From a virus, in IMG/VR virus record IMGVR_UViG_3300042445_003306, positions 1-52,037 of that record: 52,037 nucleotides of DNA. The stretch is one strand, 5' to 3'. Below, in pieces: positions 8,886-22,752 of the stretch. A model generated the notes under the pieces. That model worked only from the letters and a program-made list of their open reading frames with translations. It did not search any database and was not told the DNA's origin. Positions within the stretch are counted from its first letter, which is position 1. Each line of letters starts with the position of its first letter. A program made the translations under genes and the position numbers.

Positions 8886-9257
8886 ATGAATATCACAACT
8901 GCATATCGTCAAATGGCTCAAGAATCTTATGATGCGTCGATGGCGGCCGAACAAACGCAATTGGACGAGGCTGCAATTAAATCTCAAATCATTAAGGATG
9001 GTTACATATACTTTCCTGACGATGACGAACTATATAAGGTTAGCCCATACAAGCTTATTGGCAAAGCTAGTAAGCTAGGCGCACTTGGTGTGCAAAAGTG
9101 GTATAGCGTAAATGTTGCGACTGGTGAGGATCTTGATGACGCTGGCCTAGCTGAAATTGATGCCGATGAAAAAGGACGCTGGTTTACTGTTACTAAAAAC
9201 ATTAAAGACACCGATGCGGCGCTTATTTCAAGCGAACCCAATAACATTTACTTATAA
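8886..9257 (+). CDS. Late protein with leader (putative internal head protein), 123 aa
   Basis: The N-terminus (TAYRQMAQESYDASMAAEQT) is a diverged version of the AYRAMLAEQ leader of the next genes. It is transcribed from a TATAAATA late promoter. The acidic body contains QLDEA, a possible (L/I)xE maturation-protease site. By analogy with T4 internal proteins it may be packaged into the prohead via the leader; this is inference. No enzymatic motif is seen. Confidence 0.65.
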   Translation: MNITTAYRQMAQESYDASMAAEQTQLDEAAIKSQIIKDGYIYFPDDDELYKVSPYKLIGKASKLGALGVQKWYSVNVATGEDLDDAGLAEIDADEKGRWFTVTKNIKDTDAALISSEPNNIYL

Positions 9258-9260
9258 ATA
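9253..9260 (+). promoter_or_regulatory. T4-type late promoter TATAAATA
   Basis: Exact TATAAATA overlapping the preceding stop codon, 11 nt before the ATG at 9272. Confidence 0.75.
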
Positions 9261-9271
9261 AGGTACAATCT

Positions 9272-10081
9272 ATGAATCCAAATATCTCAATCCCACCAAC
9301 AGCAGCTGACGCATATCGTGCAATGTTAGCAGAACAAACATACGCTTCTCTTAAAGAAGTTGCGCTAACCGAAGTAAAACAGGTTACACTTAGTATTCCA
9401 TTTCCTGGCTCCAACGAGAAAAAAGTTCTCGCCCAGGCTAAAGAGATTGGTGTTAAGAATGGATTTACCGTTCTTGGTGGTGAATATGACCGCTATGATG
9501 AAGCAGTATATGTCACAATCAAAGGCGATCTTAGCAAGTTAGCTAAATTTGTTAATAAGTGGATGAGCTCCGACGATAGTGACGAAGAAATTTTAAATGA
9601 CTATAGTGAATCATATGATTCCTCTATAAATGAAGGAAAGATGGTCACATTGACTGTTCCATTTCCTGGGTCAAACGAAGATAAAATTATGGCTCAGGCT
9701 AAAACTCTTGGTAAGACTCATGGCTTTACTGTTCTTGGTGGTGAATACAACCGTTATGACAAAACTGTTGATATTGAACTTAAAGGCGATCTTAGCAAGT
9801 TAGCTAAATTTGTTAATATGTGGATGCGTACTGACGACAGTGACGAGGAAATTTTAAATGACTATAGCGAATCATATGATTCCTCTATAGCTGAAGAAAC
9901 TGAAGCGCCTGATTATGGATTTGCTTCTAATCCTCCTAAAGTTAAGCTTAAGCAATTGAAGGCAGTCATTAAAAAAATTCCTGACAATAAAGTTGATTAC
10001 ATTGTACATGTTCTTGCGCGCCTTGCAAACTTTGAACAAATCAAAGAGATTATGAAGGGTATGAGCGTAAAGAGTAACTAA
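9272..10081 (+). CDS. Late leader-family protein with internal duplication (269 aa)
   Basis: Leader TAADAYRAMLAEQTYASLKE (residues 10-29) followed by two tandem copies of an ~85-residue domain. Each copy starts with V-T-L-S/T-(I/V)-PFPGSNE, contains GFTVLGGEY and ends in DDSDEEILNDYSESYDSSI. LAE|Q and LKE|V fit the (L/I)xE cleavage rule of the T4 head protease. The C-terminal 60 residues are helical and basic. Expressed from the late promoter at 9253. Putative packaged head protein; the domain function is unknown. Confidence 0.7.
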   Translation: MNPNISIPPTAADAYRAMLAEQTYASLKEVALTEVKQVTLSIPFPGSNEKKVLAQAKEIGVKNGFTVLGGEYDRYDEAVYVTIKGDLSKLAKFVNKWMSSDDSDEEILNDYSESYDSSINEGKMVTLTVPFPGSNEDKIMAQAKTLGKTHGFTVLGGEYNRYDKTVDIELKGDLSKLAKFVNMWMRTDDSDEEILNDYSESYDSSIAEETEAPDYGFASNPPKVKLKQLKAVIKKIPDNKVDYIVHVLARLANFEQIKEIMKGMSVKSN

Positions 10082-10092
10082 TAATCTAATTA

Positions 10093-10100
10093 TATAAATA
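10093..10100 (+). promoter_or_regulatory. T4-type late promoter TATAAATA
   Basis: Exact TATAAATA, 11 nt before the ATG at 10112. Confidence 0.75.
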
Positions 10101-10111
10101 AACTACAATCT

Positions 10112-10615
10112 ATGGACAACAATATCTCAACTGCAGCCGATGCATATCGTGCAATGTTAGCAGAACAAACATACGCCTCTCTTGAAGAAGCTGCACATGA
10201 AGTGCTTTCAGAAGGTAAGTATATAATTTCAGTTGACAACTTAAAGAAATCTTTTAAAGCGCTTTCATCGGCTCAAAACGGCTTAGATGTGGCAATAAAA
10301 GACTATGATTCAATTGAAGGCCATAGCGGTCATGGTTCAGGCCATCATCAAGCTGGAACGGTTATTGTATATTATCGCAAAAAAATTAAAGAACATATCA
10401 ATGCGATGATTGAAATTCAAGAGGGTTTAATGGAGCAAGGTGAAATGACAAAGCTATTGCAACGTGCTTTCATTGATGAATTGGAGGATAATGTTGAATC
10501 ATTGCAAAAACAAATTGAATCTCGTGATGATAATAATTATATTCTTAAGACTCAATTAAGCTCACGTAAAGCAGTGCTCGCTAAAGCAAAAGCAGATCTT
10601 AAGACTTTTAAATAA
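10112..10615 (+). CDS. Late leader-family protein (167 aa)
   Basis: Begins with the same TAADAYRAMLAEQTYASLEE leader as its neighbours, then a helical, probably coiled-coil body with a Gly/His-rich patch (HSGHGSGHHQAG, about residues 71-82). Candidate protease sites are LAE|Q and LEE|A. Late-transcribed. No known domain in the body. Confidence 0.7.
   Translation: MDNNISTAADAYRAMLAEQTYASLEEAAHEVLSEGKYIISVDNLKKSFKALSSAQNGLDVAIKDYDSIEGHSGHGSGHHQAGTVIVYYRKKIKEHINAMIEIQEGLMEQGEMTKLLQRAFIDELEDNVESLQKQIESRDDNNYILKTQLSSRKAVLAKAKADLKTFK
10607..10614 (+). promoter_or_regulatory. Variant late promoter TTTAAATA
   Basis: TTTAAATA (one mismatch to TATAAATA) inside the 3' end of the preceding gene. The downstream sequence AACTACAATCT before the ATG is identical to that after the 10093 promoter. 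Confidence 0.5.
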
Positions 10616-10625: not shown

Positions 10626-10769
10626 ATGAACGACCACATCTCAATCCCACCAACAGCAGCTGACGCATATCGTGCAATGTTAGCTGAACAAACATACGCC
10701 TCTCTTGAAGAAGCAGCCGATGCCATTGAAAAAGCTGGTGGTAAACGACCAAAGATTGTAAAGGCGTAA
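10626..10769 (+). CDS. 47-aa protein that is almost only the leader
   Basis: MNDHISIPPTAADAYRAMLAE and the rest of the shared leader (to SLEEAAD), then only about 15 residues ending KRPKIVKA. DNA is nearly identical to the leader of the 9272 gene. Either a decayed paralog or a functional leader peptide with a short basic cargo. Preceded by the TTTAAATA variant promoter and followed by a consensus late promoter. Confidence 0.6.
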   Translation: MNDHISIPPTAADAYRAMLAEQTYASLEEAADAIEKAGGKRPKIVKA

Positions 10770-10779: not shown

Positions 10780-10787
10780 TATAAATA
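10780..10787 (+). promoter_or_regulatory. T4-type late promoter TATAAATA
   Basis: Exact TATAAATA, 6 nt before the ATG at 10794. Confidence 0.7.
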
Positions 10788-10793: not shown

Positions 10794-11489
10794 ATGAACA
10801 ACAACAATATATCAACAGCGGCCAACGCATACCGTGCAATGTTAGCAGAACAAAGAAACCAATTAACCGAAGCTTTTTCATATAAGGATAATGGTGATAA
10901 AAATGAACTCTCTAAGAAAGAAGTAAAGTCTATAATTGATAAGTTTTGCGATAAACACAATTTGACTGTAGATTGGTATCCGGCTGCTAAAGATAGATTA
11001 GGTTGGTTTAAAGATGATGGCGATTTAAGCGTCAGAGTTAAAAAAAGTGATGCAGATACTCCTTCGTCTCCGCACATTGTGATACAATTCTCATGGTATA
11101 ATAATGGGATGTTGGTTGGTCTTCATGGCTATAAAGACAATCTTATGAAAGCTAAGCCTATTGATAAGGTTACATCTTCTGACGTTGAAGGCGCATTTGA
11201 AGCACAAATTGCTGGAGTAAAACCGGTTAAAGGTACTGTTGCTAAAATTAAAGAAGTTGCGCTTAAAACACTCTCTAAGATTAACAATGTTGATATTACA
11301 GCAGCCGATATTAAAACCGCAGAAGCAGACGTTGATGATGCTGGTATTACTCGCATTTTGATTCCTAGCACGTGTGTCATATACCTCTTGACCAATGCTG
11401 ACATTAAGGAATATGAATTTGGTGATAGTGACAATGAAGACCTGTTCTCTGTAGGCAATGGACAAAAACTTGTTGTTGTAGCAATCTAA
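10794..11489 (+). CDS. Late leader-family protein (231 aa)
   Basis: N-terminal NISTAANAYRAMLAEQRNQL matches the shared leader, followed by a soluble alpha/beta body without recognised motifs. LAE|Q is the expected processing site. Transcribed from the late promoter at 10780. Putative prohead-packaged protein; the body is unrelated to those of its neighbours, as in T4 internal proteins, which share the leader but not the cargo. Confidence 0.7.
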   Translation: MNNNNISTAANAYRAMLAEQRNQLTEAFSYKDNGDKNELSKKEVKSIIDKFCDKHNLTVDWYPAAKDRLGWFKDDGDLSVRVKKSDADTPSSPHIVIQFSWYNNGMLVGLHGYKDNLMKAKPIDKVTSSDVEGAFEAQIAGVKPVKGTVAKIKEVALKTLSKINNVDITAADIKTAEADVDDAGITRILIPSTCVIYLLTNADIKEYEFGDSDNEDLFSVGNGQKLVVVAI

Positions 11490-11916: not shown

Positions 11917-11991
11917 CCTCCTGTAGCTCATCGGAAGAGCGGCTTCTTTATAAGGGGCGGGTAGTTGGGTCAGCACCAACCAGGAGGACCA
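11917..11991 (+). tRNA. tRNA-Ile(UAU)
   Basis: Acceptor CCTCCTG/CAGGAGG perfect, D stem GCTC/GAGC, anticodon stem GCTTC/GGGGC (G:U pairs) with loop TTTATAA giving anticodon TAT, T stem GTTGG/CCAAC, encoded CCA. Reads AUA without needing lysidine. Confidence 0.85.
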
Positions 11992-12009
11992 ATTTGCAAA
12001 CGGACTCAC

Positions 12010-12086
12010 GGAAAGTGGCGACGCACATGAGTGATTAAGTTCACGTCTTCGGATCAACATGACAAGTATGCCTGTAGAAGCTTTCC
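12010..12086 (+). ncRNA. tRNA-sized structured element (77 nt)
   Basis: Closed by GGAAAG/CTTTCC; internal GTGA/TCAC and ACTCA/TGAGT pairings compete. Not a canonical tRNA (no T arm, no CCA). Followed by AAATTTT like the tRNAs. Confidence 0.4.
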
Positions 12087-12095
12087 AAATTTTCA

Positions 12096-12172
12096 CGGAT
12101 ATTAGCTCAGCCTGTTAGAGCGCTGCGTTTGGGACGCAGAAGTCGTAGGTTAGAATCCTACATATCCGACCA
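12096..12172 (+). tRNA. tRNA-Pro(UGG)
   Basis: Acceptor CGGATAT/ATATCCG, anticodon stem CTGCG/CGCAG with loop TTTGGGA (anticodon TGG), T arm GTAGG/CCTAC, encoded CCA. Confidence 0.93.
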
Positions 12173-12179
12173 GCTTAAA

Positions 12180-12269
12180 GGAACGGTGGCTGAGTGGTCT
12201 AAAGTACTCCCTTGCTAAGGGAACGTGGCAGCAATGTCACCGTGGGTTCAAATCCCACTCGTTCCGCCA
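12180..12269 (+). tRNA. tRNA-Ser(GCU)
   Basis: Acceptor GGAACGG/TCGTTCC, anticodon loop TTGCTAA (GCT), long variable arm, T arm GTGGG/CCCAC, G discriminator and CCA. A normal class II serine tRNA. Confidence 0.93.
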
Positions 12270-12293
12270 ATCTCAAACCAATATATAAACTAT

Positions 12294-12530
12294 ATGAAAC
12301 AAACATACACACTAGCAAGCAGCGAATTTTGCGGACCATGCAAGATGATTAAGAAGTATCTCGCAGAGAATAGTATCTCCGTGGCTGTGATCAATATGGA
12401 AGATGATCAAAAGTTTTTCATGGAAAACGGTATCAAGACTGTTCCCGTTCTCCTAAGCTCTGATGGCGCCAGATATGCTGGTGTTGATGCCATTCTGGGC
12501 CATTTTTCAGCAAAAGCTGTAACTTGTTGA
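12294..12530 (+). CDS. Thioredoxin/glutaredoxin-like protein (78 aa)
   Basis: Short redoxin: active site SSEFCGPCKMIKKYL (CGPC near residues 14-17) and cis-Pro segment KTVPVL. At 78 aa it is glutaredoxin/NrdC-sized but has the thioredoxin CGPC motif. Probable electron donor to the phage NrdA. The start at 12294 follows the tRNA-Ser directly; earlier in-frame ATGs lie inside the tRNA. Its C-terminus (KAVTC-stop) is made by the GTAACTTGTTGA element of the downstream promoter cassette. Confidence 0.85.
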   Translation: MKQTYTLASSEFCGPCKMIKKYLAENSISVAVINMEDDQKFFMENGIKTVPVLLSSDGARYAGVDAILGHFSAKAVTC

Positions 12531-12602
12531 TTTTCAACGGCTAAAAATAAATGCAAAAACATGCATTTTTTCCTTTACAAAGCCGATTTTTTGTGGTATA
12601 AT
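12516..12602 (+). promoter_or_regulatory. Early promoter cassette (copy 2), drives structured RNA region
   Basis: GTTGATTTTCAAC inverted repeat, ATGCA/TGCAT pair, TTTACA at 12574-12579, 17 bp, TATAAT at 12597-12602, leader GTAAGGCGAAAC. No ORF follows; the transcript runs into the structured RNA/tRNA region. Confidence 0.75.
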
Positions 12603-12616
12603 AATTCTGTAAGGCG

Positions 12617-12696
12617 AAACTAATTCCCCAAACCGAAGCTAAATAAGATCTGGATTTAATAATACTTTCTTGTTTACAAGTTGCAGAAATTAGTTT
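12617..12696 (+). ncRNA. Structured element closed by AAACTAATT/AATTAGTTT (80 nt)
   Basis: 9-bp perfect terminal stem (12617-12625 / 12688-12696), internal CTTG/CAAG hairpin. Not a tRNA. No ORF. Confidence 0.4.
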
Positions 12697-12800
12697 ACAA
12701 TTACAACACGATCAAACTGGTTGAGATTCAAAACCTCGGCTGATGCGATTCCTTCAAGGCAAAGTCTTGATTGTAGCTTGTTCTCCAAATATGATTGTTG

Positions 12801-12898
12801 CTAGGCGAAGGGCTAATAACCCTGCTGAACGGTGAAAATCCGTTCCGTTAATCACTACGCTCTAAATGAGGTTACCGCCTCGGAATGAGAAGCCCTAG
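12801..12898 (+). ncRNA. Structured element with three hairpins (98 nt)
   Basis: Closed by CTAGG/CCTAG. Contains AGGG-CTAATAA-CCCT (7-nt loop), AACGG-TGAAAAT-CCGTT (7-nt loop) and GAGG-TTACCG-CCTC. The hairpins have tRNA-arm dimensions but the order and sequence are not those of a tRNA. 12697-12800 and 12899-12932 show no gene. Confidence 0.4.
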
Positions 12899-12932
12899 TT
12901 AAAATCATTGAGGTCATGTTGAGTGACAATCA

Positions 12933-13007
12933 TGTTTGGACCACAACATTTCTTTGACAACATTTTGATTTTGAAACCCAGGAGCATTCAGTCCCTGGTA
13001 CCAAACA
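12933..13007 (+). ncRNA. tRNA-length element with 7-bp acceptor-like stem (75 nt)
   Basis: TGTTTGG/CCAAACA is a perfect 7-bp terminal stem enclosing exactly 61 nt, as in a tRNA. A CCAGG/CCTGG hairpin sits near the T-arm position, but no anticodon arm with T33 can be drawn and no CCA is encoded. Confidence 0.4.
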
Positions 13008-13112
13008 AGAAGAATGTGATTCCGCTCCTCGCTTTGAGTTGAAGCCGTTCACAAGTAAAACTTCACTGAAAACACTTTTAGGTGCTCATCCAGCTGATCA
13101 AGGCGGTGAGTT

Positions 13113-13202
13113 AAACGTGCGATCAGTACGGCCTTTAAATTTTAATAGCACGTTTGATTATTGCGGCGAGCGACTGCAAGACCAGTGGTCGCAATAATCA
13201 AA
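13113..13202 (+). ncRNA. Two overlapping strong hairpins
   Basis: AAACGTGC (13113-13120) pairs with GCACGTTT (13148-13155). TTTGATTATTGCG (13153-13165) pairs with CGCAATAATCAAA (13190-13202), 13 bp perfect. They share TTT at 13153-13155, so their ends compete. 13008-13112 holds no gene I can see. Confidence 0.45.
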
Positions 13203-13226
13203 AGGAATTAGTGTAATACTTTTAAT

Positions 13227-13301
13227 CGCGGGTTAATCGAGTGGTTCAGATAGGTGTCTCATAAGCATCTCACGGGAGTTCGAATCTTCCACCCGCAACC
13301 A
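13227..13301 (+). tRNA. Initiator-type tRNA-fMet(CAU)
   Basis: Acceptor CGCGGGT/ACCCGCA leaves C1 opposite A72, the hallmark of bacterial initiator tRNA. Discriminator A and CCA are encoded. Anticodon stem GGTGT/GCATC, loop CTCATAA. The anticodon stem lacks the full GGG/CCC triplet, so initiator identity rests on C1:A72. Confidence 0.8.
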
Positions 13302-13306
13302 ATTTT

Positions 13307-13396
13307 GGGACGAAGGCAACTGTTAGATGCGTTGCGGCGGTCTGTAAAACCTCTACTTAAGAAACACCGTGGGTGCAATTCCCTCTCGGCCCACCA
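13307..13396 (+). tRNA. tRNA-Tyr(GUA)-like, with stem mismatches
   Basis: Acceptor GGGACGA/TCGGCCC with one A:G mismatch; D stem GCAAC/GTTGC; anticodon loop CTGTAAA (GTA) on a stem with one C:T mismatch; variable region long as in bacterial Tyr; T stem with one mismatch; CCA encoded. Could be a decaying duplicate of the Tyr tRNA at 13559. Confidence 0.55.
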
Positions 13397-13400
13397 TCCT

Positions 13401-13546
13401 TTATTGTTAAAGCATCTTTGGTTTGATGCTGTCCATATCGAGAACGGACTATGCCGGAGCATACGAACGAAGTACAAGTTCTATGGTGCAAACGGAAAAT
13501 GCGCTCAAAGGCGCGCGAGGTGGTTCAATTCCACAGACAATAAACA
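13401..13546 (+). ncRNA. tRNA-like shell with variable core, copy 1 (146 nt)
   Basis: Terminal stem TATTGTT/GACAATA (one G:U), D-arm-like AGCATC/GATGCT, GCGC/GCGC variable-arm-like hairpin, and a T arm GGTGG-TTCAATT-CCAC, ending AACA instead of a CCA end. The middle (about 13434-13496) has its own hairpins. The ends are nearly identical to the element at 16211-16345 while the core differs. Confidence 0.55.
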
Positions 13547-13558
13547 TTTTTGATTTTT

Positions 13559-13644
13559 GGGTAGGTATACCGTTAAGGAGACGGTTCAGACTGTAAATCT
13601 GACGCCGCAAGGCTCGCTGGGATCGTTCCCCAGACTGCCCACCA
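13559..13644 (+). tRNA. tRNA-Tyr(GUA)
   Basis: Acceptor GGGTAGG/ACTGCCC (last pair mismatched), anticodon CAGA-CTGTAAA-TCTG, variable arm CGCCGCAAGGC, T arm CTGGG/CCCAG, CCA encoded. Confidence 0.8.
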
Positions 13645-13651
13645 ATTTGTA

Positions 13652-13736
13652 TGAACAGCCGCTTTTCGTGTCTAGGGAAAAGCTCCACAATATCAAGGTT
13701 ATGATATGGCGCTGGTGAAATTCCAGAACGGATTCA
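13652..13736 (+). ncRNA. tRNA-like element with 6-nt hairpin loop (85 nt)
   Basis: Imperfect terminal pairing TGAA..CCG / CGG.TTCA; GCTTTTC/GAAAAGC arm; ATATCA-AGGTTA-TGATAT arm (13690-13707); CTGG-TGAAATT-CCAG T-like arm. No CCA. Confidence 0.4.
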
Positions 13737-13744
13737 AATTTTTA

Positions 13745-13819
13745 CCTGATGTAGCTCAGAGGAAGAGCATCCGCTTGATAAGCGGAAGGTCGAGATATCG
13801 TAATTCTCCATCAGGACCA
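13745..13819 (+). tRNA. tRNA-Ile(GAU)
   Basis: Acceptor CCTGATG/CATCAGG perfect, D stem GCTC/GAGC, anticodon TCCGC-TTGATAA-GCGGA (GAT), T stem GAGA/TCTC region, CCA encoded. Confidence 0.92.
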
Positions 13820-13821
13820 AT

Positions 13822-13895
13822 TGAGGATTAGCATAATGGTAATGCATCTGACTTTGACTCAGAACATAGAAGTTCGATTCTTCTATCCTCTACCA
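13822..13895 (+). tRNA. tRNA-Gln(UUG)
   Basis: Acceptor TGAGGAT/ATCCTCT with unpaired U1:U72 (a weak first pair is a glutamine identity feature), D stem GCAT/ATGC, anticodon TCTGA-CTTTGAC-TCAGA (TTG), T arm, CCA. Confidence 0.9.
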
Positions 13896-13900
13896 ATTTA

Positions 13901-13990
13901 TGGGCTGGTATGATCGAGCTGAGCTGATGATTGCATATTGCAATTGTTCTAAGGAACCTTAAGTGAGTTTGAATCTCACACTGTCCACCA
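13901..13990 (+). tRNA. Degenerate class II tRNA-like gene, identity unclear
   Basis: Good T arm GTGAG-TTTGAAT-CTCAC and CCA end, GTTC/GAAC long variable arm, but the acceptor has two mismatches and the anticodon arm (ATTGCATATTGCAAT) has no U33-type loop. Possibly a pseudo-tRNA. Confidence 0.4.
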
Positions 13991-14027
13991 ATTTCAATGA
14001 GAGATTAGAGGTAAGTTGATATACAAC

Positions 14028-14104
14028 ACCTTCTATAGCATTATGGTAATGCGCCGACATGATATGTTGGAGATTCCCGGGTTCAAATCCCGGAGAAGGG
14101 TGCT
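14028..14104 (+). tRNA. tRNA-like gene, possible Ile(GAU)
   Basis: T arm CCGGG-TTCAAAT-CCCGG and anticodon CCGAC-ATGATAT-GTTGG (GAT) are good, D stem GCAT/ATGC. The acceptor ACCTTCT/AGAAGGG has an A:G first pair and no CCA is encoded (GCT instead). Confidence 0.5.
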
Positions 14105-14157
14105 CTAATAAACAACGAGGCGTCAGACCACGCCTACAACATTGAGAAAATTTTAAT

Positions 14158-14232
14158 GGAGGTAAAGCTTTAATGGTGAAGCATCGAGCTTTTAACTCGA
14201 AGAACTGGGATCGTTACCCAGTGCCTCTACCA
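14158..14232 (+). tRNA. tRNA-Lys(UUU)
   Basis: Acceptor GGAGGTA/TGCCTCT with G:U pairs, anticodon TCGAG-CTTTTAA-CTCGA (TTT), T arm CTGGG/CCCAG, CCA. Confidence 0.9.
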
Positions 14233-14239
14233 ATTTCAT

Positions 14240-14314
14240 GGGGTTGTAGCATAACGGTAATGCACCTGCTTTGCAAGTAGTAGATTGTCAGTTCGAATCT
14301 GACTAGCTCCACCA
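14240..14314 (+). tRNA. tRNA-Ala(UGC)
   Basis: Acceptor GGGGTTG/TAGCTCC contains the G3:U70 alanine identity pair; anticodon loop TTTGCAA (TGC); T arm GTCAG/CTGAC; CCA. Confidence 0.88.
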
Positions 14315-14319
14315 ATTTC

Positions 14320-14414
14320 CCTTGGTATCTACCCGCAATTTGGGTATTGCTCACGAGTGTGAAGCAAGTCAGAAGTTAGGCTGGTCGCGACAGTAATCCT
14401 TCTGATGGCCAAGG
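14320..14414 (+). ncRNA. Four-arm structured RNA (95 nt)
   Basis: Terminal stem CCTTGG/CCAAGG; arms TACCC/GGGTA, TTGCTCAC/GTGAAGCAA and TCAGAAG/CTTCTGA. The order mimics a cloverleaf, but with a long third arm and no tRNA consensus bases. It lies between tRNA-Ala and tRNA-Gly. Confidence 0.5.
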
Positions 14415-14422
14415 CTCTTTTC

Positions 14423-14496
14423 GCGGGATTAGTTTAATGGTAAAATGATAGTCTTCCAAACTGAAGTCGAGAGTTCAATTCTCTCATCCCGCACCA
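14423..14496 (+). tRNA. tRNA-Gly(UCC)
   Basis: Acceptor GCGGGAT/ATCCCGC perfect, anticodon loop CTTCCAA (TCC), T arm GAGAG/CTCTC, CCA. Confidence 0.92.
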
Positions 14497-14503
14497 ATCA
14501 CAA

Positions 14504-14575
14504 TGGGCGATCTCTGGCATGGAGGTCTAAAAACCGAAAGGTATCCTCTGGGTTCGATTCCCAGTCGCTCCACCA
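14504..14575 (+). tRNA. Short atypical tRNA-like gene, identity unclear
   Basis: T arm CTGGG-TTCGATT-CCCAG and CCA are good. The acceptor TGGGCGA/TCGCTCC has a U1:C72 mismatch. The D stem is only CTC/GAG and the anticodon region (GGT-CTAAAA-ACC) has a 6-nt loop. 72 nt in total. Confidence 0.5.
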
Positions 14576-14583
14576 ATCATAAC

Positions 14584-14658
14584 GGGCTGTTAGTAGAATG
14601 GATATAACGTTGCGCTACGAACGCAAAGATCTAGGTTCAATTCCTGGGCGGCCTACCA
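14584..14658 (+). tRNA. tRNA-Arg(ACG)
   Basis: Acceptor GGGCTGT/GCGGCCT with G:U pairs, anticodon TTGCG-CTACGAA-CGCAA (ACG), T arm CTAGG/CCTGG, CCA. Anticodon A34 would normally be converted to inosine. Confidence 0.9.
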
Positions 14659-14665
14659 ATTTTCG

Positions 14666-14779
14666 CTAATGTATTCGGGTACGATGCATCGGCAACTCTA
14701 CCAGTGAAGCAAATCATATTTGCGAAGAATTCGTGACCAGTGAAAGTCGGTTTAACGGTAGAGCAATTTTAATACATAG
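14666..14779 (+). ncRNA. Nested structured RNA (114 nt)
   Basis: Outer stem CTAATGTATT/AATACATAG (one bulge) encloses a 68-nt unit closed by the perfect 7-bp stem CTCTACC/GGTAGAG (14696-14763), which holds GCAAAT/ATTTGC and CGAA/TTCG hairpins. Confidence 0.45.
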
Positions 14780-14802
14780 TGTAAAGGCATAAGATATAAA
14801 AA

Positions 14803-14879: not shown

Positions 14880-14886
14880 TTCTTTT

Positions 14887-14961: not shown

Positions 14962-14967
14962 TTTTCT

Positions 14968-16627: not shown

Positions 16628-16631
16628 TTTT

Positions 16632-16721: not shown

Positions 16722-16727
16722 TTTTTT

Positions 16728-16829: not shown

Positions 16830-16834
16830 TTTTT

Positions 16835-16909
16835 AGATATGTAAAGGGAAGGACGTTCAGTTAGTCCTATAGTTTGCAAACTCCCGCAATCAAACTTTAT
16901 GCCATATCT
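16835..16909 (+). ncRNA. tRNA-length element, 7-bp stem (75 nt)
   Basis: Perfect AGATATG/CATATCT terminal stem; AGGAC/GTCCT and AGTTT/AAACT hairpins enclosed by GGGA/TCCC; GCA/TGC arm near the 3' side. No T loop or CCA. Confidence 0.45.
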
Positions 16910-17029
16910 ATTTTTCAATGCAACACGCAACCGTATAGGTTGCTTCGATATAGGAATAGTCATAAAAGCTTAATGACGTACCATATCTGAGAGGTTTTGA
17001 CACCAGTGCTTGCTCCAATTTTAACATCG

Positions 17030-17244
17030 GCGTGGAAAGCAGACACGCAGGAAAATGTGGTTGGTATGAAAGTGCTCTTGGAGATACACCGAGATGAGAG
17101 CATGAGTAGGCCGACCTTGACCGAAGAGAAGAGCCGTGTATGGCGAGTAAACAGAATGCAAACCAACTCCGAATCGAGATTGAGAGGCATGTCCTGTTGG
17201 TAGTAATAACTACGTCTAATCAGAGTAGCGCCTGATATGTTAAA
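17030..17244 (+). ncRNA. Large structured RNA closed by TTTAACAT/ATGTTAAA (215 nt)
   Basis: 8-bp perfect terminal stem. Internal CGTG/CACG and TGCTCT/AGAGCA hairpins and others. No ORF longer than random, no tRNA, and no match to RNase P or 6S RNA that I can recognise. Trailed by CATTTT. Confidence 0.45.
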
Positions 17245-17477
17245 CATTTTCTACTGCTCCAGCAGCGACCGTTCGCTACGGAAACTGTAAAGCATGGCTT
17301 ACAACACTGGAGGAAGGAAGCCACAAAGCACCTGTCTGTTAAATGCGCGGTTCTTCCGCAATAGGGTGTAAAGATGACAGCCGGAAAGACGGCACAACGT
17401 CAGCAGGAAAAGCAGGTTCAATGCCTGTCGCGAATGGCCATAAACCTCAGCGGGCCGGTAGGGATCGGACTGACACC
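17245..17477 (+). other. Structured spacer, no gene
   Basis: CTCCAG/CTGGAG stem near 17258-17316 and a T-arm-like CAGG-TTCAAT-GCCTG hairpin. No gene seen; the ORF at 17343-17546 reads through the RNA structures. Confidence 0.3.
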
Positions 17478-17632
17478 TTTATCTGTCGAGAATATCTACA
17501 CACGGCTGTGAAGACCTATGCTGATGATCCGTCTGAGGCGATGTAAATCGCTACAAAGTGGCCCTTCCATGATTCAGCGAAGATGCTGTATATACGTGAG
17601 GGGTATATGCATATACAGGTCTGACAGATAAA
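17478..17632 (+). ncRNA. Large structured RNA closed by TTTATCTGTC/GACAGATAAA (155 nt)
   Basis: 10-bp perfect terminal stem, internal GCGAT/ATCGC and TGTATAT/ATATACA hairpins, followed by CAATTTTT. Confidence 0.5.
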
Positions 17633-17660
17633 CAATTTTTGCGTCCTATGCGTTTTCTCA

Positions 17661-17742
17661 CCGTTTTTGCGACGATGCAATTGAAGCGCAATGAGCGGAA
17701 AAAACGGATCAGGTTAGAGGTTATCCAGTAAAAACCTCACCA
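17661..17742 (+). ncRNA. Structured element ending in a CCA minihelix
   Basis: CCGTTTTT/AAAAACGG stem (17661-17707) followed by the hairpin GAGGTT/AACCTC (17717-17738) and ACCA. The minihelix plus CCA resembles an acceptor end without the rest of a tRNA. Confidence 0.35.
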
Positions 17743-17747
17743 ATTTT

Positions 17748-17969
17748 ATGACAAACAAACAAGTAACATTATACAAAGGAACTCGTGAAGAGTTTGAAGC
17801 AAAATATGAAGATTACAAACCAGTGGGAAAATCATTCAAAGAACAATTGGATGCTATTCAATCTATTGGAATGGTATTTTATTTTTTAGAAACATCAACT
17901 AAGGATGAAGAAGGTAATTATCTAATAAATCGTTTAGTTGAAAATGATTTCATTATAATCGCATCATAA
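17748..17969 (+). CDS. Small protein within the tRNA array (73 aa)
   Basis: 73-aa ORF with normal phage-like composition (acidic, VTLYKGTREEFEAKYEDYKP), the only non-endonuclease, non-redoxin, soluble ORF inside the array. Starts 5 nt after a CCA end. No domain recognised. Confidence 0.55.
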   Translation: MTNKQVTLYKGTREEFEAKYEDYKPVGKSFKEQLDAIQSIGMVFYFLETSTKDEEGNYLINRLVENDFIIIAS

Positions 17970-17975
17970 ACAATT

Positions 17976-18137
17976 TTGCGGTCATTGAGGGGTATTCGTC
18001 ACTAAGACGTTTGTGCAAGGTAGTCAACATAAAACGCACGATTCAGCGATGAGTTAATGCAGTTGATAGAAATCGAGTCTTTCGAGGCGATTATTCGGTT
18101 GGGAACACATTGCACGATATAGCGACCTGAGCCGCAA
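17976..18137 (+). ncRNA. Large structured RNA closed by TTGCGG/CCGCAA (162 nt)
   Basis: 6-bp GC-rich terminal stem extended by CA/TG across small bulges. No ORF, no tRNA. Confidence 0.4.
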
Positions 18138-18145
18138 ACCCATTT

Positions 18146-18207
18146 CCAATTACCTGACTGCAAGCGGCTATACCTGATAAAGTAGTGCGCAGTAGGTCAG
18201 GAATTGG
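18146..18207 (+). ncRNA. Hairpin RNA CCAATT(A)CCTGAC/GTCAGGAATTGG
   Basis: 12-bp stem with one bulged A enclosing 37 nt. Followed by TCAATTTT, the same trailer as the tRNAs. Confidence 0.45.
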
Positions 18208-18215
18208 TCAATTTT

Positions 18216-18286
18216 ATGAGAGGATCATACGGAGATCGCTAGGCCCATAGTCTAGAGAGGAGGTTAAATTCCTTCCCCTCATAATT
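18216..18286 (+). tRNA. tRNA-like gene with CAU loop, no CCA
   Basis: Acceptor ATGAGAG/CCCTCAT with one mismatch, D stem GATC/GATC, anticodon CTAGG-CCCATAG-TCTAG (CAT but C33 instead of U33), T arm GGAGG-TTAAATT-CCTTC. Possible third CAU tRNA or a pseudogene. Confidence 0.45.
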
Positions 18287-18384
18287 CGTATTCATACGCG
18301 ATAAAGTATGACGCTGCTAAGAGTGTATCCTTAGATAGTCCCAGCCCTGGATGAGTCGTAGGCCGTAATGCTATGGGCACATCA

Positions 18385-18561
18385 TTTTCTATCGTGCGTT
18401 TTGATCGCCCGAAGTATTCGAGGAAAACAGACTGGAAGGTAGTCTATATACACATTGAGTATGTAGGTGTTCGGCGAGACAGTACTTGTAGAAAAGTGAA
18501 GAGGGATCAATGAAAAGTGAGAGTCTGCAAAACGACACCACACCTCTTCAGCGATAGAAAA
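18385..18561 (+). ncRNA. Large structured RNA closed by TTTTCTATCG/CGATAGAAAA (177 nt)
   Basis: 10-bp perfect terminal stem; inside, GTGAAGAGG/CCTCTTCA-type pairing. No ORF or tRNA recognised. 18287-18384 before it holds only a CATAC/GTATG hairpin. Confidence 0.5.
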
Positions 18562-18586
18562 ACTTTCGTATATATAACTATACAAA

Positions 18587-18676
18587 TCCACTGTACCCTA
18601 ATGGCAAGGGACCGCACTGTTAATGCGGCGTATATCCGAGAGGATTATGAAGGTTCGAGTCCTTCTGGTGGAGCCC
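18587..18676 (+). tRNA. tRNA-Asn(GUU) with long variable arm
   Basis: Acceptor TCCACTG/TGGTGGA, D stem CCCT/AGGG, anticodon CCGCA-CTGTTAA-TGCGG (GTT), T arm GAAGG-TTCGAGT-CCTTC, G discriminator followed by CCC. A 20-nt variable arm (ATCC-GAGA-GGAT) makes it class II, unlike any normal Asn tRNA. Confidence 0.75.
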
Positions 18677-18702
18677 TTTATTATTAACGACTTATATATA
18701 AT

Positions 18703-18777
18703 GGCTCATACGCATAGAAAGCGATGCACCGGATTTGTAACCCGGATAGGAGTGTGCATGTCACTCATGAGCCTCCA
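18703..18777 (+). tRNA. tRNA-Thr(UGU)
   Basis: Acceptor GGCTCAT/ATGAGCC perfect, D stem GCAT/ATGC, anticodon CCGGA-TTTGTAA-CCCGG (TGT; last pair A:C), T arm GAGTG/CACTC, U discriminator, CCA. Confidence 0.87.
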
Positions 18778-18784
18778 CTTTTAT

Positions 18785-18865
18785 GCAGGCGTTAGCGTAG
18801 CGGCCGAACGCACCTGATTTACATTCAGGCAATCACCGCAGGTTCGAATCCTGCCGCCTGTACCA
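18785..18865 (+). tRNA. tRNA-Val(UAC)
   Basis: Acceptor GCAGGCG/CGCCTGT, anticodon CCTGA-TTTACAT-TCAGG (TAC), T arm GCAGG/CCTGC, CCA. Variable region slightly long. Confidence 0.92.
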
Positions 18866-18889
18866 TTTCATAAGATGTATATATACTTT

Positions 18890-19525
18890 ATGAGAAAATT
18901 CATTTTGTTTTTAGCGCTGATGGCTGCCGTTCAATCATGCGCACCACAAAAAGAAACGCTGTTGTTGTCAAACCCACCAGTTGCACAGCTTGTGGCTCCA
19001 TCGGTTGAAAAAGCAATCAGTGTTAAAAACAAAATCAACAAAACGGTTGACTCACAGCGTGTTAATATAACAGCGGTTGACTCTGACATCAAACAGTCTA
19101 TAGCGTATGCAGTGTTGGTCAAACCATACACTGATGTGGATGCAAATGGCACCACGCATTATTCAGCCTTGATTCGTTACTTAAATAGTGCCGACACACA
19201 TATACAACTGCTTACAGCTGCAAACACAGCCTTGATTGCCGATGAGCAATCGCTGCAAACTCTTTTGGATGCTAGTTTATCAGCCGCACAAAACAAGGAT
19301 GCCGAAGCTGCGTCACTGATTGCAGCTGCCGCTAATAAAGACTTAGTGATAGCTGAAGGTAAGATCAAACTTAATGCCGCGCTTGCTAAAGCTCGTGTGT
19401 TAGAGCTTGATCTTGAAAACGCTGCAGCCTATAAGAAAGGCGTGGTTGCATTGGTTGCTCTAATTTTTCTCTATTTTATTTTCCGAGCAGTTGCTAGCAT
19501 ATGGTCGCCATTCTCTAAATTTTAA
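18890..19525 (+). CDS. Lipoprotein with C-terminal membrane helix (211 aa)
   Basis: Signal peptide MRKFILFLALMAAVQSC with lipobox VQSC (lipid Cys at residue 17), a long Ala-rich helical/coiled-coil middle, and a C-terminal transmembrane segment (VVALVALIFLYFIF, about residues 186-203). The topology suggests a protein anchored in both membranes or folded back, possibly a lysis (spanin-like) or superinfection protein; this is inference. The start at 18890 is preferred over 18875 because it gives a clean signal peptide. Confidence 0.65.
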   Translation: MRKFILFLALMAAVQSCAPQKETLLLSNPPVAQLVAPSVEKAISVKNKINKTVDSQRVNITAVDSDIKQSIAYAVLVKPYTDVDANGTTHYSALIRYLNSADTHIQLLTAANTALIADEQSLQTLLDASLSAAQNKDAEAASLIAAAANKDLVIAEGKIKLNAALAKARVLELDLENAAAYKKGVVALVALIFLYFIFRAVASIWSPFSKF

Positions 19526-19530
19526 TATAG

Positions 19531-19538
19531 TATAAATA
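19531..19538 (+). promoter_or_regulatory. TATAAATA late promoter directly before a tRNA
   Basis: Exact late-promoter word 11 nt upstream of tRNA-Ala at 19550, suggesting that the last tRNAs are also made late. Confidence 0.55.
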
Positions 19539-19549
19539 CAATTTCTAAA

Positions 19550-19624
19550 GGGGATATAGCTCAGCGGTAGAGCAGATCACTTGCACTGATAAGGTCTGCA
19601 GTTCGATCCTGCATATCTCCACCA
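19550..19624 (+). tRNA. tRNA-Ala(UGC), second copy
   Basis: Acceptor GGGGATA/TATCTCC with G3:U70, D stem GCTC/GAGC, loop CTTGCAC (TGC), T arm TGCAG/CTGCA, CCA. Confidence 0.88.
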
Positions 19625-19627
19625 AAT

Positions 19628-19701
19628 GCGTTGTTCGTCTAATGGTAAGACTATTGATTCCAAACCAATAAACGTGGGTTCGATTCCTACACAACGTGCC
19701 A
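19628..19701 (+). tRNA. tRNA-Trp(CCA)
   Basis: Acceptor GCGTTGT/ACAACGT, D stem GTCT/AGAC, anticodon ATTGA-TTCCAAA-CCAAT (CCA; A:C closing pair), T arm GTGGG/CCTAC, G discriminator as in Trp tRNAs, CCA. Confidence 0.85.
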
Positions 19702-19706
19702 TTTTT

Positions 19707-19781
19707 CCCTACTTAGCTGAGGCGGATTAGCGCAAGACTGAAAATCTTGAAAGGTTGGATCGTTACCAACAGTAGGGGCCA
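19707..19781 (+). tRNA. tRNA-Phe(GAA)
   Basis: Acceptor CCCTACT/AGTAGGG perfect, anticodon CAAGA-CTGAAAA-TCTTG (GAA), T arm GTTGG/CCAAC, CCA. Confidence 0.93.
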
Positions 19782-19794
19782 TTTTTTTATATAC

Positions 19795-19870
19795 GGAAGT
19801 TGTCCGGTTGGTCGAGGACACTGTCTTGAAAACGGAAGAGGGCGACGAGCTCTCCGTGGGTTCAAAGGTT
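19795..19870 (+). pseudogene. Truncated tRNA-Ser(UGA)
   Basis: GGAAGTT acceptor 5' strand, D arm GTCC/GGAC, anticodon CTGT-CTTGAAA-ACGG (TGA), variable arm, and T stem 5' strand GTGGG-TTCAAA. The 3' T strand, acceptor strand and CCA are missing, replaced by GGTTCGTTTTG and the late promoter of the HNH gene. Confidence 0.8.
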
Positions 19871-19877
19871 CGTTTTG

Positions 19878-19885
19878 TATAAATA
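19878..19885 (+). promoter_or_regulatory. T4-type late promoter TATAAATA
   Basis: Exact TATAAATA, 5 nt before the ATG at 19891 of the HNH gene. Confidence 0.75.
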
Positions 19886-19890
19886 AACCC

Positions 19891-20736
19891 ATGGACTATA
19901 AGCGAATCTATAATGACCTTATTACATATCGTCAAAATAATGTATTGTCTAATGGTTATATTGAAAAACATCATATAATTCCAAGATCGTTAGGTGGAAG
20001 CAATGATAAAGAAAACATTGTTTCATTAAGCGGGAGAGAACATTATATTGCACATTTATTACTTGCTCGATTTAATCGTTGTAGTAAAACGGCATATGCT
20101 CTTTGGATGATGCAGATGAAAAATTCTAAAGATTGTGATCGCCCTCGTATCAAGAGCGGCAGAATGTATGAATGGATTCGTAAGGAAATCATTAAGTATA
20201 CTTCAAGGAATAATAGGATTACATCTAAAGGCGAACGTAATAGCCAACATGGTACACGTTGGATTTGTAACATCAAATTGCAAGAAAACCGAAAGGTGAG
20301 TAAAGACGAACTTATTCTTGATGGATGGATTCTTGGGCGTAATAAATGGGTTGTCAGTACTTATGTTCCAAAGAAATATATTAACATATGTAATTTAGTT
20401 CTTCAATCAAATTCACGTATTATTTACGGCGAAGATATTCCCGATGGATGGGTAAAAGGAAAAAATAAATGGTTAACCCGTAAAAGAAAAGATACCAAGA
20501 CTAGAGTTAAGAAAACTAGAGCCGAACTTAAATTTTTAAGTGATGAAAAACTCAAAGGATTGGCAAAAACATTATGGGCTGAATTTTTTATTAGTAATCA
20601 TGAGTCTCTTAATTCTTTTGCAAAAGAAAAAGGCTTAATAAGAATGACAATAAAAGGATGGTTTAAAAAGTATATACCTGAGTATCCATCAGATATTACA
20701 ACCAAATCATTAAAGAAACATATAACGGGTACTTAA
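19891..20736 (+). CDS. HNH homing endonuclease in tRNA-Ser(UGA)
   Basis: T4-like HNH core IEKHHIIPRSLGGSNDKENI followed by SGREHYIAHLLLARF (residues about 23-63): HH, N and H catalytic/metal residues are visible. The C-terminal half is basic with repeated WILGRNKW/WVKGKNKW units (residues about 140-200) and a helix-turn-helix-like end, probably DNA binding. The start follows the late promoter; upstream in-frame codons belong to the truncated tRNA. The stop overlaps the next tRNA-Ser by 10 nt. Confidence 0.9.
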   Translation: MDYKRIYNDLITYRQNNVLSNGYIEKHHIIPRSLGGSNDKENIVSLSGREHYIAHLLLARFNRCSKTAYALWMMQMKNSKDCDRPRIKSGRMYEWIRKEIIKYTSRNNRITSKGERNSQHGTRWICNIKLQENRKVSKDELILDGWILGRNKWVVSTYVPKKYINICNLVLQSNSRIIYGEDIPDGWVKGKNKWLTRKRKDTKTRVKKTRAELKFLSDEKLKGLAKTLWAEFFISNHESLNSFAKEKGLIRMTIKGWFKKYIPEYPSDITTKSLKKHITGT

Positions 20737-20816
20737 CCAGAACGGCTTCTGGGACCGCCTTGAAAGCGAATCGTGGGATTATATCTCATGGGGATCGACA
20801 CCTCAGGTACCCGCCA
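20727..20816 (+). tRNA. tRNA-Ser(UGA), intact
   Basis: Acceptor GGGTACT/GGTACCC, D arm CCAGA/TTCTGG, anticodon CGC-CTTGAAA-GCG (TGA), variable arm TGGGAT/TCTCA, T arm TGGGG/CCTCA, G discriminator, CCA. Its sequence differs widely from the truncated copy at 19795, so it is a replacement rather than the original 3' half. Confidence 0.9.
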
Positions 20817-20870
20817 TTTTAAAACCATATCTTTATAAGAAAAAGGATAATGTTGAATTTGGCGTTTAAT

Positions 20871-20947
20871 GCAAGTGTAGCCCAATTGGCAGAGGCGACA
20901 GATTTAGGATCTGTATAGTGTAGGTTCGAGTCCTATCACTTGTACCA
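20871..20947 (+). tRNA. tRNA-Leu(UAG) with short variable loop
   Basis: Acceptor GCAAGTG/CACTTGT, anticodon ACAGA-TTTAGGA-TCTGT (TAG, reads CUA), 5-nt variable loop, T arm GTAGG/CCTAT, CCA. Second Leu tRNA here lacking the long variable arm. Confidence 0.87.
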
Positions 20948-20957
20948 TTTTTTTATA

Positions 20958-21032
20958 CGCACAGAGGGTGACTGGATAATCGACAGCCTGCAAAACTGTT
21001 TTTAGTGAGTTCGATTCTCACCTGTGCGTCCA
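20958..21032 (+). tRNA. tRNA-Cys(GCA)
   Basis: Acceptor CGCACAG/CTGTGCG perfect, anticodon loop CTGCAAA (GCA) on ACAGC/ACTGT (last pair mismatched), T arm GTGAG/CTCAC, U discriminator typical of Cys, CCA. The D arm is weak. Last gene of the array. Confidence 0.87.
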
Positions 21033-21061: not shown

Positions 21062-21069
21062 TATAAATA
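21062..21069 (+). promoter_or_regulatory. T4-type late promoter TATAAATA
   Basis: Exact TATAAATA, 6 nt before the ATG at 21076. Confidence 0.75.
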
Positions 21070-21075
21070 CGGTAT

Positions 21076-21336
21076 ATGAATATATTTTCGTCATCATACA
21101 TCGACAGCATGATTGAAGACGCCGCGGCCATTCTTGAAGGCAAGACGCCAGCAGAGCGCAAACAATTCCTGCGAGATCGAGTGCAAAGCTTACGTGATCG
21201 CATGGATAAAAATAAACAAAAGATGCGTGACTCTTCACTTGAGCCTGAAGAAAAGAGCCGCCTTAAATTTCAGAATGATGCTATGACTAAAGAAATCACA
21301 TGGCTTAATAGCAAACTCAATGCACCAACCGTTTAA
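21076..21336 (+). CDS. Late protein, possible head-targeted (86 aa)
   Basis: Short helical protein; the N-terminus SYIDSMIEDAAAILEGKTPAE resembles the leader of the late family (small hydrophobic helix then a LEG/ILE site). The rest is a basic coiled coil (LRDRMDKNKQKMRD). Expressed from the late promoter at 21062. Confidence 0.6.
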   Translation: MNIFSSSYIDSMIEDAAAILEGKTPAERKQFLRDRVQSLRDRMDKNKQKMRDSSLEPEEKSRLKFQNDAMTKEITWLNSKLNAPTV

Positions 21337-21344
21337 TATAAATA
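21337..21344 (+). promoter_or_regulatory. T4-type late promoter TATAAATA
   Basis: Exact TATAAATA overlapping the preceding stop, 14 nt before the ATG at 21359. Confidence 0.7.
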
Positions 21345-21358
21345 ACTAACAACCAATT

Positions 21359-22324
21359 ATGAAACCATTCCATTATCACGAAGATCCAATGTATGCTGCA
21401 GCTGCAGCAATTCTCGCTCAAAAAACTGTATCTGAAGAAGCAGTACAACTCGATGAAGGCGTAGAAGATATTGCAGCTGCTGTTGCCAATTTCAAAAAAG
21501 GTGACAAAACAAACTTTGGTGTAGTTACCGATGTTTCTTCCACTAGTATTAGCTTTAAAGCAAAAGACCTGCCGGTTACAAAGATCGCTTTTAACCAACG
21601 CAAGATGGGCAGCAAAGATTTTGTACTTGATAAACTGGTTAAACTTAAAGAAGGCGTTTCCCTTGAAGAAGGTGTTATTGAATTACAAGAAGCCGTTTCA
21701 ATCCGTTTCATTGATGACCTAATTGATGCGGCTAACAAAAATCAAAGTAAAAATAAGCAATTGCGTCAAGGTCAAAGTATGATGATTGCTTTGAAGGACA
21801 TGAACTCAAAATTGTATTCTGATGTTACTGGTACCGATTATGATCCGTTTTATAATGATAAGAAAATTCCAGCATTACTGAAACATTTAAATCCTAATTG
21901 GAAGTTTTCTGATCTGGACGAGATCATGAAAGAAGCTATGGCTATGGGTATGGGTACAGCAACCATCACTGCTCCAGGCAACAAGTTGCACGGCAAACAA
22001 GTTAGCATCTTCCACAAGTTTGACGATGGTCGCCTTAATGTTCAATACGCAAAGAGTGACAAGAAGGGCGATGTGATTAATCTCACACTCAACAAAGGTC
22101 AATACAAATTGGATGAAGCTGCGCTCAAGCAAAGTTTACCAACTAAAGAAAACAAACAGCGCCTTGAATCATTTATGAAGAAGTTTAATGCGCTTCGTGA
22201 CGCATTTCCAGATGTAATATTTCGCGGTACACACGATGAAAAAGTTGAAACAGGTTTAATTGATGATGACAATATCGTTCAATATCTTGGATCAAAGATT
22301 CCATTAGTTCACAAAGGAAAATAA
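21359..22324 (+). CDS. Late leader-family protein with repeated LxE sites (321 aa)
   Basis: The N-terminal helix MYAAAAAILAQKTVSEEAVQ is followed by QLDE|G, KLKE|G, SLEE|G and ELQE|A within residues 28-112, a series of sites fitting the T4 head-protease rule (L/I)xE. The body includes LHGKQVSIFHKFDDGRLNVQ and NKGQYKLDEA, the latter shared with the next gene. Late promoter at 21337. Putative packaged head protein. Confidence 0.7.
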   Translation: MKPFHYHEDPMYAAAAAILAQKTVSEEAVQLDEGVEDIAAAVANFKKGDKTNFGVVTDVSSTSISFKAKDLPVTKIAFNQRKMGSKDFVLDKLVKLKEGVSLEEGVIELQEAVSIRFIDDLIDAANKNQSKNKQLRQGQSMMIALKDMNSKLYSDVTGTDYDPFYNDKKIPALLKHLNPNWKFSDLDEIMKEAMAMGMGTATITAPGNKLHGKQVSIFHKFDDGRLNVQYAKSDKKGDVINLTLNKGQYKLDEAALKQSLPTKENKQRLESFMKKFNALRDAFPDVIFRGTHDEKVETGLIDDDNIVQYLGSKIPLVHKGK

Positions 22325-22332
22325 ATACTAAT

Positions 22333-22752
22333 ATGAATAGTTTTGCATACAATATAAAAGGTGACGCACTTCTTAAAGCTGCGGAGTCAATTCTTCAAGA
22401 TTCTTTACAAGAAGCAGATATTAAGAGAGTCAAATATGACTTAGTTATTGCTAAACTTAAAGACGGAATTTGGGACACATCATATGATGTAAAACCTAGA
22501 ACGCATCTTGAAGTTATTGACAACAAAGGACAATATAAACTTGATGAATCGCACAAAGTAGGTTTTCCATTAACTAAAAAAGCAATCACAGCTGTAGCCA
22601 ATTTAGATCATGACGAATTTGAAGAATTTCTTGGAGGTATCGCTGATTATTTTCATGAATTAGATGCCGGAGATGAAGGTATCAGTGTTCGCGTGACTAC
22701 GCAAATTGCTATACATTTTGAACAGGCATATAAGATCTGGAAAAACCGATAA
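22333..22752 (+). CDS. Late leader-family protein (139 aa)
   Basis: The N-terminus DALLKAAESILQDSLQEADI parallels the leader of the preceding gene, with LQE|A as possible cleavage site, and DNKGQYKLDES repeats a motif of the 321-aa protein. A weak AATAAATA upstream (near 22319) may be a degenerate late promoter; read-through from 21337 is also possible. Ends before a strong terminator. Confidence 0.65.
   Translation: MNSFAYNIKGDALLKAAESILQDSLQEADIKRVKYDLVIAKLKDGIWDTSYDVKPRTHLEVIDNKGQYKLDESHKVGFPLTKKAITAVANLDHDEFEEFLGGIADYFHELDAGDEGISVRVTTQIAIHFEQAYKIWKNR

Follow-up and report, generated by a model that had tools for sequence, protein, structure and literature searches.

To our knowledge, what is known of packaging-tagged proteins that are injected to counter restriction comes essentially from the T-even phages, which infect enteric bacteria. 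After injection, the T4 internal proteins Ip1, Ip2 and Ip3 each inhibit a different GmrSD type IV restriction enzyme (PMC12373910). T4 Alt is likewise packaged and injected; it is an ADP-ribosyltransferase trimmed by the prohead protease gp21, whose published motif is L/I-X-E (PMC9026906). Here we analyse a 52-kb virus fragment from IMG/VR (record IMGVR_UViG_3300042445_003306, positions 1 to 52,037; hereafter the window). The original prediction, an earlier reading of this DNA, singled out its genes starting at 8886, 9272, 10112, 10626, 10794, 21076, 21359 and 22333 as candidate capsid-targeted cargo. Judged from sequence, these genes very probably encode internal head proteins that are packaged and trimmed in a variant of the T4 internal-protein system. 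The idea of capsid-targeted, protease-trimmed cargo is supported by the motif at leader/body junctions, late promoters, the gp21, gp22 and gp23 genes of relatives, a layout on both sides of a tRNA cluster, a probable remote homologue of T4 IPI in relatives and modules shared with the scaffold protein gp22.

All eight genes are present, on the + strand (as are all features below unless noted), and their N-terminal leaders fall into three classes. As predicted, 9272, 10112, 10626 and 10794 share a AADAYRAMLAEQ-type leader in front of unrelated bodies; this class 1 leader reads (IPP)TAA[DN]AYRAML[AD]EQ. The remaining four were described as diverged helical leaders, which is right for 8886, whose class 2 leader (NITTAYRQMAQxSYD) aligns with class 1 through I, T, AYR and M. 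It does not hold for 21076, 21359 and 22333, which have a different helical type, class 3 (D-x-[LM]-x-x-AA-x-x-[IV]L), not derivable from class 1.

The first cargo locus (8886-11489) holds the class 1 and class 2 genes. The leader of 8886 (MNITTAYRQMAQ...QLDE↓, where the arrow marks the presumed cut; amino acids (aa) 1-28, 8886..8969) is placed by alignment and by its site LDE↓A, and precedes body C (8970..9257), recognised by comparing bodies across relatives. In 9272 the leader (TAADAYRAMLAEQ...ALTE↓, aa 1-34, 9272..9373; alignment and junction site) is followed by a body (9374..10081) made of two body-D repeats with SINE↓G (P1 = aa 121) between them, followed by SIAE↓E (P1 = aa 208) and then a helical part at the C-terminus. 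The leader of 10112, placed in the same two ways, ends in EVLSE↓G (aa 1-34, 10112..10213) and carries body E (10214..10615), which recurs with an extended C-terminus in gene 19157 of the relative G005. The 47-aa gene 10626 (10626..10769) is almost leader only, a decayed cargo gene or mini-cargo. In 10794 the aligned leader ends in NQLTE↓A (aa 1-26, 10794..10871), and the C-terminal 53 aa of the body (10872..11489) are common to the leaderless G005 17722.

The second cargo locus (21076-22752) holds the class 3 genes. Gene 21076 (21076..21336) consists of a leader (DSMIEDAAAILE↓G) and a short helical body. Gene 21359 is modular. Its leader (FHYHEDPMYAAAAAIL...QLDE↓G, aa 1-33, 21359..21457) is followed by module D1 (KKGDKTNFGVV...NQRKMGSK, 21458..21652), a module (21722..21901) related to the stand-alone 73-aa g226 of cyanophage S-CRM01 (phrog_8466), a further stretch and, after YKLDE↓A, body A (22118..22324); its [LIM]xE sites cluster where these parts adjoin. 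The same leader heads proteins of 172-953 aa, polyproteins among them, in the relatives' contigs L161-L163 and L170-L179. In 22333 the leader (GDALLKAAESILQDSLQE↓A, aa 1-27, 22333..22413) is accompanied by a module (HKVGFPLTKKAI..., 22549..22752) that begins after YKLDE↓S. This module is also the C-terminal one of L163 (84.5% identity) and, after ELEE↓A, of L162.

The leader is a real module, because in relatives it is exchanged between bodies. Body A, the C-terminal module of 21359, stands alone behind class 1 (L049) or class 2 (L047, L140, L154). Body B follows class 1 (L047, L049, L140) or class 3 (L143), or is fused after body D (G004 37296), and body D itself occurs in relatives and window in single, double or fused forms. 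Body C is found behind class 1 in G004 36298 and class 2 in L049/L140, and corresponds distantly to the last module of the L170-L178 polyproteins (687-953 aa). Comparison by eye adds the RLPG body, with class 2 in G004 35982 and a class 3 leader in L170/L172. Since bodies are found under differing leaders, the three leader types are interchangeable. Thus the defining arrangement of T4-type internal proteins, a leader shared by otherwise unrelated proteins, is found here as well, and the bodies are hypervariable among near-identical phages.

The sites at which these exchanges occur follow a strict pattern. Across 21 leader/body and body/body junctions, P1 is glutamate in 21/21, P3 is leucine in 20 and isoleucine in 1, P2 takes six different residues, and Ala or Gly predominates at P1'. 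Some of the bodies are close homologues and the junctions are to that extent non-independent; what is informative is the constancy of P3 and P1 in the face of drift at P2. Because P3 and P1 are invariant at shuffled junctions and match the gp21 rule, we read these positions as head-protease sites. The gp21-like sites claimed for each gene are there, with [LI]xE in the first 60 aa of 8/8. When the next residue must be A, G or S, the motif occurs in this interval in 7/8 cargo genes compared with 9/81 other open reading frames (ORFs; Fisher p=1.2e-5). Borders of shared modules lie <=6 aa from [LI]xE in 47 cases, against 24.6 expected when positions are drawn at random within those proteins (p=5e-4); for window proteins alone the figures are 9 and 5.0 (p=0.03). 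The original prediction had placed the cut directly after LAE (Q...). This is probably not the main site, as it is the next one downstream that is fixed against the bodies (LDE↓A, LTE↓V, LNE↓G, LSE↓G), and the leader's own site (LTE↓G) abuts a body in G004 38038 only.

These junctions also bear on a different account, in which the leader is a recombination and expression cassette (late promoter, start region and helix) that spread by duplication in front of soluble late accessory proteins, and L/I-x-E is coincidental. Promoter-leader DNA is nearly identical among the class 1 copies and diverges right after the leader, 10626 is a bare leader, and the motif is short and common in acidic linkers. 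However, the same bodies are served by three sequence-unrelated leader types, P3 and P1 hold while P2 drifts, modules recur in the scaffold protein gp22, and there is an IPI homologue among the modules. We consider a mere cassette improbable.

The predicted timing of expression points in the same direction as the junctions. The T4-type late promoter TATAAATA occurs 12 times in the window, always on the + strand, against 3.9 expected. It lies 6-14 nucleotides before the ATG of 6/8 cargo genes but of only 2/81 other ORFs (p=1.3e-6), namely upstream of 8886 (8869..8876), 9272 (9253..9260), 10112 (10093..10100), 10794 (10780..10787), 21076 (21062..21069) and 21359 (21337..21344). Both exceptions have near-matches: no exact late promoter was found for 10626, which has TTTTAAATA, and 22333 is preceded by the promoter-like AATAAATA. 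Most cargo genes of relatives, and gp21, are also preceded by TATAAATA. By their promoter sequences, then, the cargo genes would be expressed late. Promoters supplied gene by gene, and junctions that fit the head protease rule, are hard to square with early or middle host-takeover proteins that are made in the cell and never packaged. An accessory, hypervariable locus beside tRNAs and homing endonucleases would suit such proteins, but we give this explanation very little credence.

A cargo system of this kind calls for a gp21-like protease, for which the original prediction proposed a search of the full genome. None was found in the window or its near-identical contigs, but close relatives have it: contigs anchored on UvsW (~90% identical to that of the relative G003) carry gp20, gp21, gp22 and gp23 in T4 order. 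In these contigs gp21 is identified by PF03420 (Peptidase_S77, E=1.3e-41), gp22 by PF25623 and gp23 by PF07068, and 10/10 contigs conserve [FY]L[NSA]E↓[GN] in gp23, where its propeptide should end. Three long contigs, of 173.8, 143.9 and 106.6 kb, encode gp21 together with a cargo polyprotein bearing a class 3 leader (L172, of 173.8 kb, L174 and L179). With both genes on the same long contig, no joining of fragments is needed for those relatives.

The gp22 proteins of relatives have a normal C-terminal core and an N-terminal half that holds variable cargo-type inserts. Among proteins whose cores are 97-99% identical, inserts at a single position account for length differences of roughly 85-107 aa. 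Module D1, which also occurs in cargo polyproteins, is found in the gp22 of L063 (55% over 82 aa) and L168 (60% over 80 aa), and a second module is common to the L172 polyprotein and the gp22 of L083 and L068. Because the gp22 N-terminus is glutamate-rich, L/I-x-E counts within it were not used as evidence. It is quite possible, and we put it forward tentatively, that gp22 is another carrier of the same cargo, such that protease-site-bounded effector modules in its N-terminal half trade with leader-tagged proteins and polyproteins. If so, one protease would both dismantle the scaffold and free a combinatorial set of small injected effectors. Alternatively, the shared modules may have a scaffold function. 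As separate observations, the gp22 of L062, L063, L070, L077, L087 and L131 contain inserts of several unrelated domain types, and a small insert domain (IAKKLG[IL][TS]...) is seemingly also present in the L170 polyprotein; no new contexts were found for a gp22 module (SSDEEF...) or for the L087 insert.

The presence of the same modules in gp22 also lends weight to the notion that the eight genes specify additional structural proteins or core components comparable to T4 gp67/gp68, which would assist in head construction, be broken down into peptides afterwards and not be injected. Late promoters would be expected of such proteins too, and T4 IPIII also affects head assembly (PMC9026906). Against this stand bodies that are hypervariable between near-identical phages, one IPI-like domain, and [LI]xE sites concentrated at module borders, as for domain release rather than destruction. 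We regard core proteins of this type as unlikely, and it is reasonably likely that the packaged proteins are injected effectors rather than core components.

The IPI-like domain is body B of the relatives. It matches phrog_4363 (E=0.004), which is the family of T4 ipI (E=3e-49 at T4 73597-73878). When 4011 ORFs are ranked with an IPI profile (T4, dhaeg, Salicola SCTP-2), the body-B proteins come out on top (E 0.003-0.03); hhalign returns 86.5% over 78 columns, and of 200 column-shuffled profiles none scores as high. In a reverse tblastn search the top match is SCTP-2 gp68 (E=0.2), itself an IPI homologue (E=1e-4). The similarity is reciprocal and collinear, and body B sits where expected, with a leader and an L/I-x-E site immediately before it. 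By these comparisons body B is a probable remote homologue of T4 IPI outside the T-even group. The layout is also reminiscent of T4, in which the tRNA cluster separates ipI from ipII/ipIII; in the window, a cluster of 23 tRNA genes (11917..21032) likewise separates the two cargo loci. The proposed anti-defence role has the IPI homologue of relatives in its favor and draws no support from any window protein. One relative encodes a C5-cytosine methylase, so its DNA may be modified, which is no more than suggestive.

Several observations weigh against reading the window genes as packaged, trimmed internal head proteins. The [LI]xE motif is short and common, occurring in the first 60 aa of 39/81 other ORFs (p=0.004 against the cargo genes). 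The window record and its near-identical contigs are fragments that exclude the head genes gp21-23, and the link between protease and cargo therefore runs through relatives; it is in these only that gp21, gp22 and gp23 share a phage with cargo. Neither the T4 tag nor the N-termini of the genus's own gp23, gp22 and gp21 are significantly similar to the leaders of classes 1, 2 and 3. Finally, body B, which resembles IPI only remotely, does not occur in the window, and the AlphaFold model of this body reaches a predicted local distance difference test (pLDDT) score of only 36.

Searches with the window proteins themselves were mostly negative. PHROGs gave no IPI family match among them, and Pfam, PHROGs and PADLOC gave weak, sub-cut-off matches only for the bodies. 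In the phage collection searched, 9272, 22333 and 10794 had no homologues and 21359 was matched through one small module only. The predicted model of 9272, of low confidence (pLDDT 65-76), contains beta-alpha-beta-beta-alpha repeats and has no Foldseek match at E<=0.001 in PDB or BFVD. The possibility that the leaders are copies of the N-termini of the genus's gp23, gp22, gp21 or core proteins was set aside, as local alignments were unconvincing against shuffled leaders (best p about 0.03 among many tests). The T4 capsid-targeting sequence (CTS) does have look-alikes elsewhere in the relatives: G003 genes 44335, 47259 and 49283 start with a T4-like FKxYLxE. In the oriented G003 contig, 44335-52957 holds genes with CTS-like starts (FKSYLAEA, FKQHYLTEG, FKEYLSES). 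Among them, a ligase-like KWDGAPA motif occurs in one gene and another is cytidylyltransferase-like; these genes probably encode further packaged proteins.

The internal-protein reading suggests the following sequence of events. Each protein would be made late, usually from its own TATAAATA promoter, and its short helical leader would dock it to the gp22-type scaffold core during prohead assembly. The gp21-type prohead protease would then cut after L/I-x-E and so detach the leader; multi-domain cargo (9272, 21359, 22333) would at the same time be divided into its modules. The freed small domains would stay in the head beside the DNA and later be injected, probably countering host defences such as, perhaps, modification-dependent restriction. 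Leader and promoter together would form a cassette, which recombination would join to new bodies in the two hypervariable loci flanking the tRNAs.

The phage, a freshwater one, is by gene content and sequence comparison a member of the T4 superfamily, related to Kyanoviridae and of a lineage outside Tevenvirinae. One 84.9 kb contig is 99.95% identical to the window and reaches past both of its ends, and three others are ~90% identical over long stretches. Gene set and order in these contigs (UvsX, clamp loader, SbcCD, UvsW and others) fit the superfamily. Judged by UvsX, Phage C48C1 of the Kyanoviridae is the closest isolate, at 76% identity, and Acidovorax phage ACP17 comes next (65%). In G003 (oriented, 40207-42629), an intein-like or homing-type insertion splits the UvsX reading frame. 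In or beside the tRNA/cargo region of the window lie an HNH gene (8289-8873, Pfam) and other homing-endonuclease-like genes (15249-15899 and 19891-20736), a possible cause of its high turnover. Immediately left of the first cargo locus, a gene on the - strand (7361-8026) has a zincin-like HECGHYVDDM motif and a weak Pfam match (Zn_peptidase_2, E=0.07); it was not seen at the corresponding place in the 90% relatives. Farther right, 27289-28140 and 36130-36450 contain several paralogues built of short HRLDGPA[VI]E.ADG...W.VDGK repeats, and 39864-43754 holds a row of glycosyltransferase, HAD/NTP-transferase and unknown sugar-related genes.

These findings may be relevant in several ways. First, freshwater relatives of T4 would use the same logic with different, exchangeable tags. 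Second, packaged effectors could be recognised by a sequence rule, a swappable leader or module border at L/I-x-E together with a late promoter. Many candidate anti-defence domains emerge as well, and the scaffold, too, may be able to carry cargo. Finally, packaging by different leaders is now directly testable.

It is useful to contrast these genes with described systems. Like the polyvalent proteins (PMC5512222), the polyproteins are multi-domain, would be packaged and injected, and shuffle their domains fast. Unlike them, they have L/I-x-E between modules, which suits a head protease, and no Pfam domain was found in them, whether peptidase, ADP-ribosyltransferase, ParB-type effector or other. 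The head and ejection proteins of phiKZ and SPN3US are also propeptide cargo cut after glutamate by a gp21-like protease, often at redundant sites (PMC9026906), but they belong to another phage lineage and use another motif (S/A-x-E in phiKZ). Alt differs in its enzymatic domain, as no window cargo protein matched an ADP-ribosyltransferase family in Pfam or PHROGs searches. The relatives' gp22 shares the normal C-terminal core of the T4 gp22 family (PF25623, phrog_237) and departs from it in its variable N-terminal inserts. By comparison, T4 IPI, IPII and IPIII are closest: a short N-terminal propeptide on unrelated bodies, an L/I-x-E cut, hypervariable loci and ip genes flanking tRNAs (PMC9026906, PMC12373910) all have counterparts here, and one body class of the relatives appears to be a remote IPI homologue. 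The differences are that the leaders are unrelated to the T4 MKTYQEFIAEA and come in at least three exchangeable classes, and that this lineage outside Tevenvirinae has multi-module polyproteins and modules shared with gp22. A limited search of open-access literature, with subscription papers and preprints outside its scope, found no report of these leaders, of the polyproteins, of gp22 sharing or of a non-T-even IPI homologue. Overall, CTS-tagged internal proteins are known from T4, and what appears new at the sequence level is a set of leader families, cargo polyproteins that reach 953 aa, the sharing of modules with gp22 and a probable IPI homologue beyond the T-even phages.

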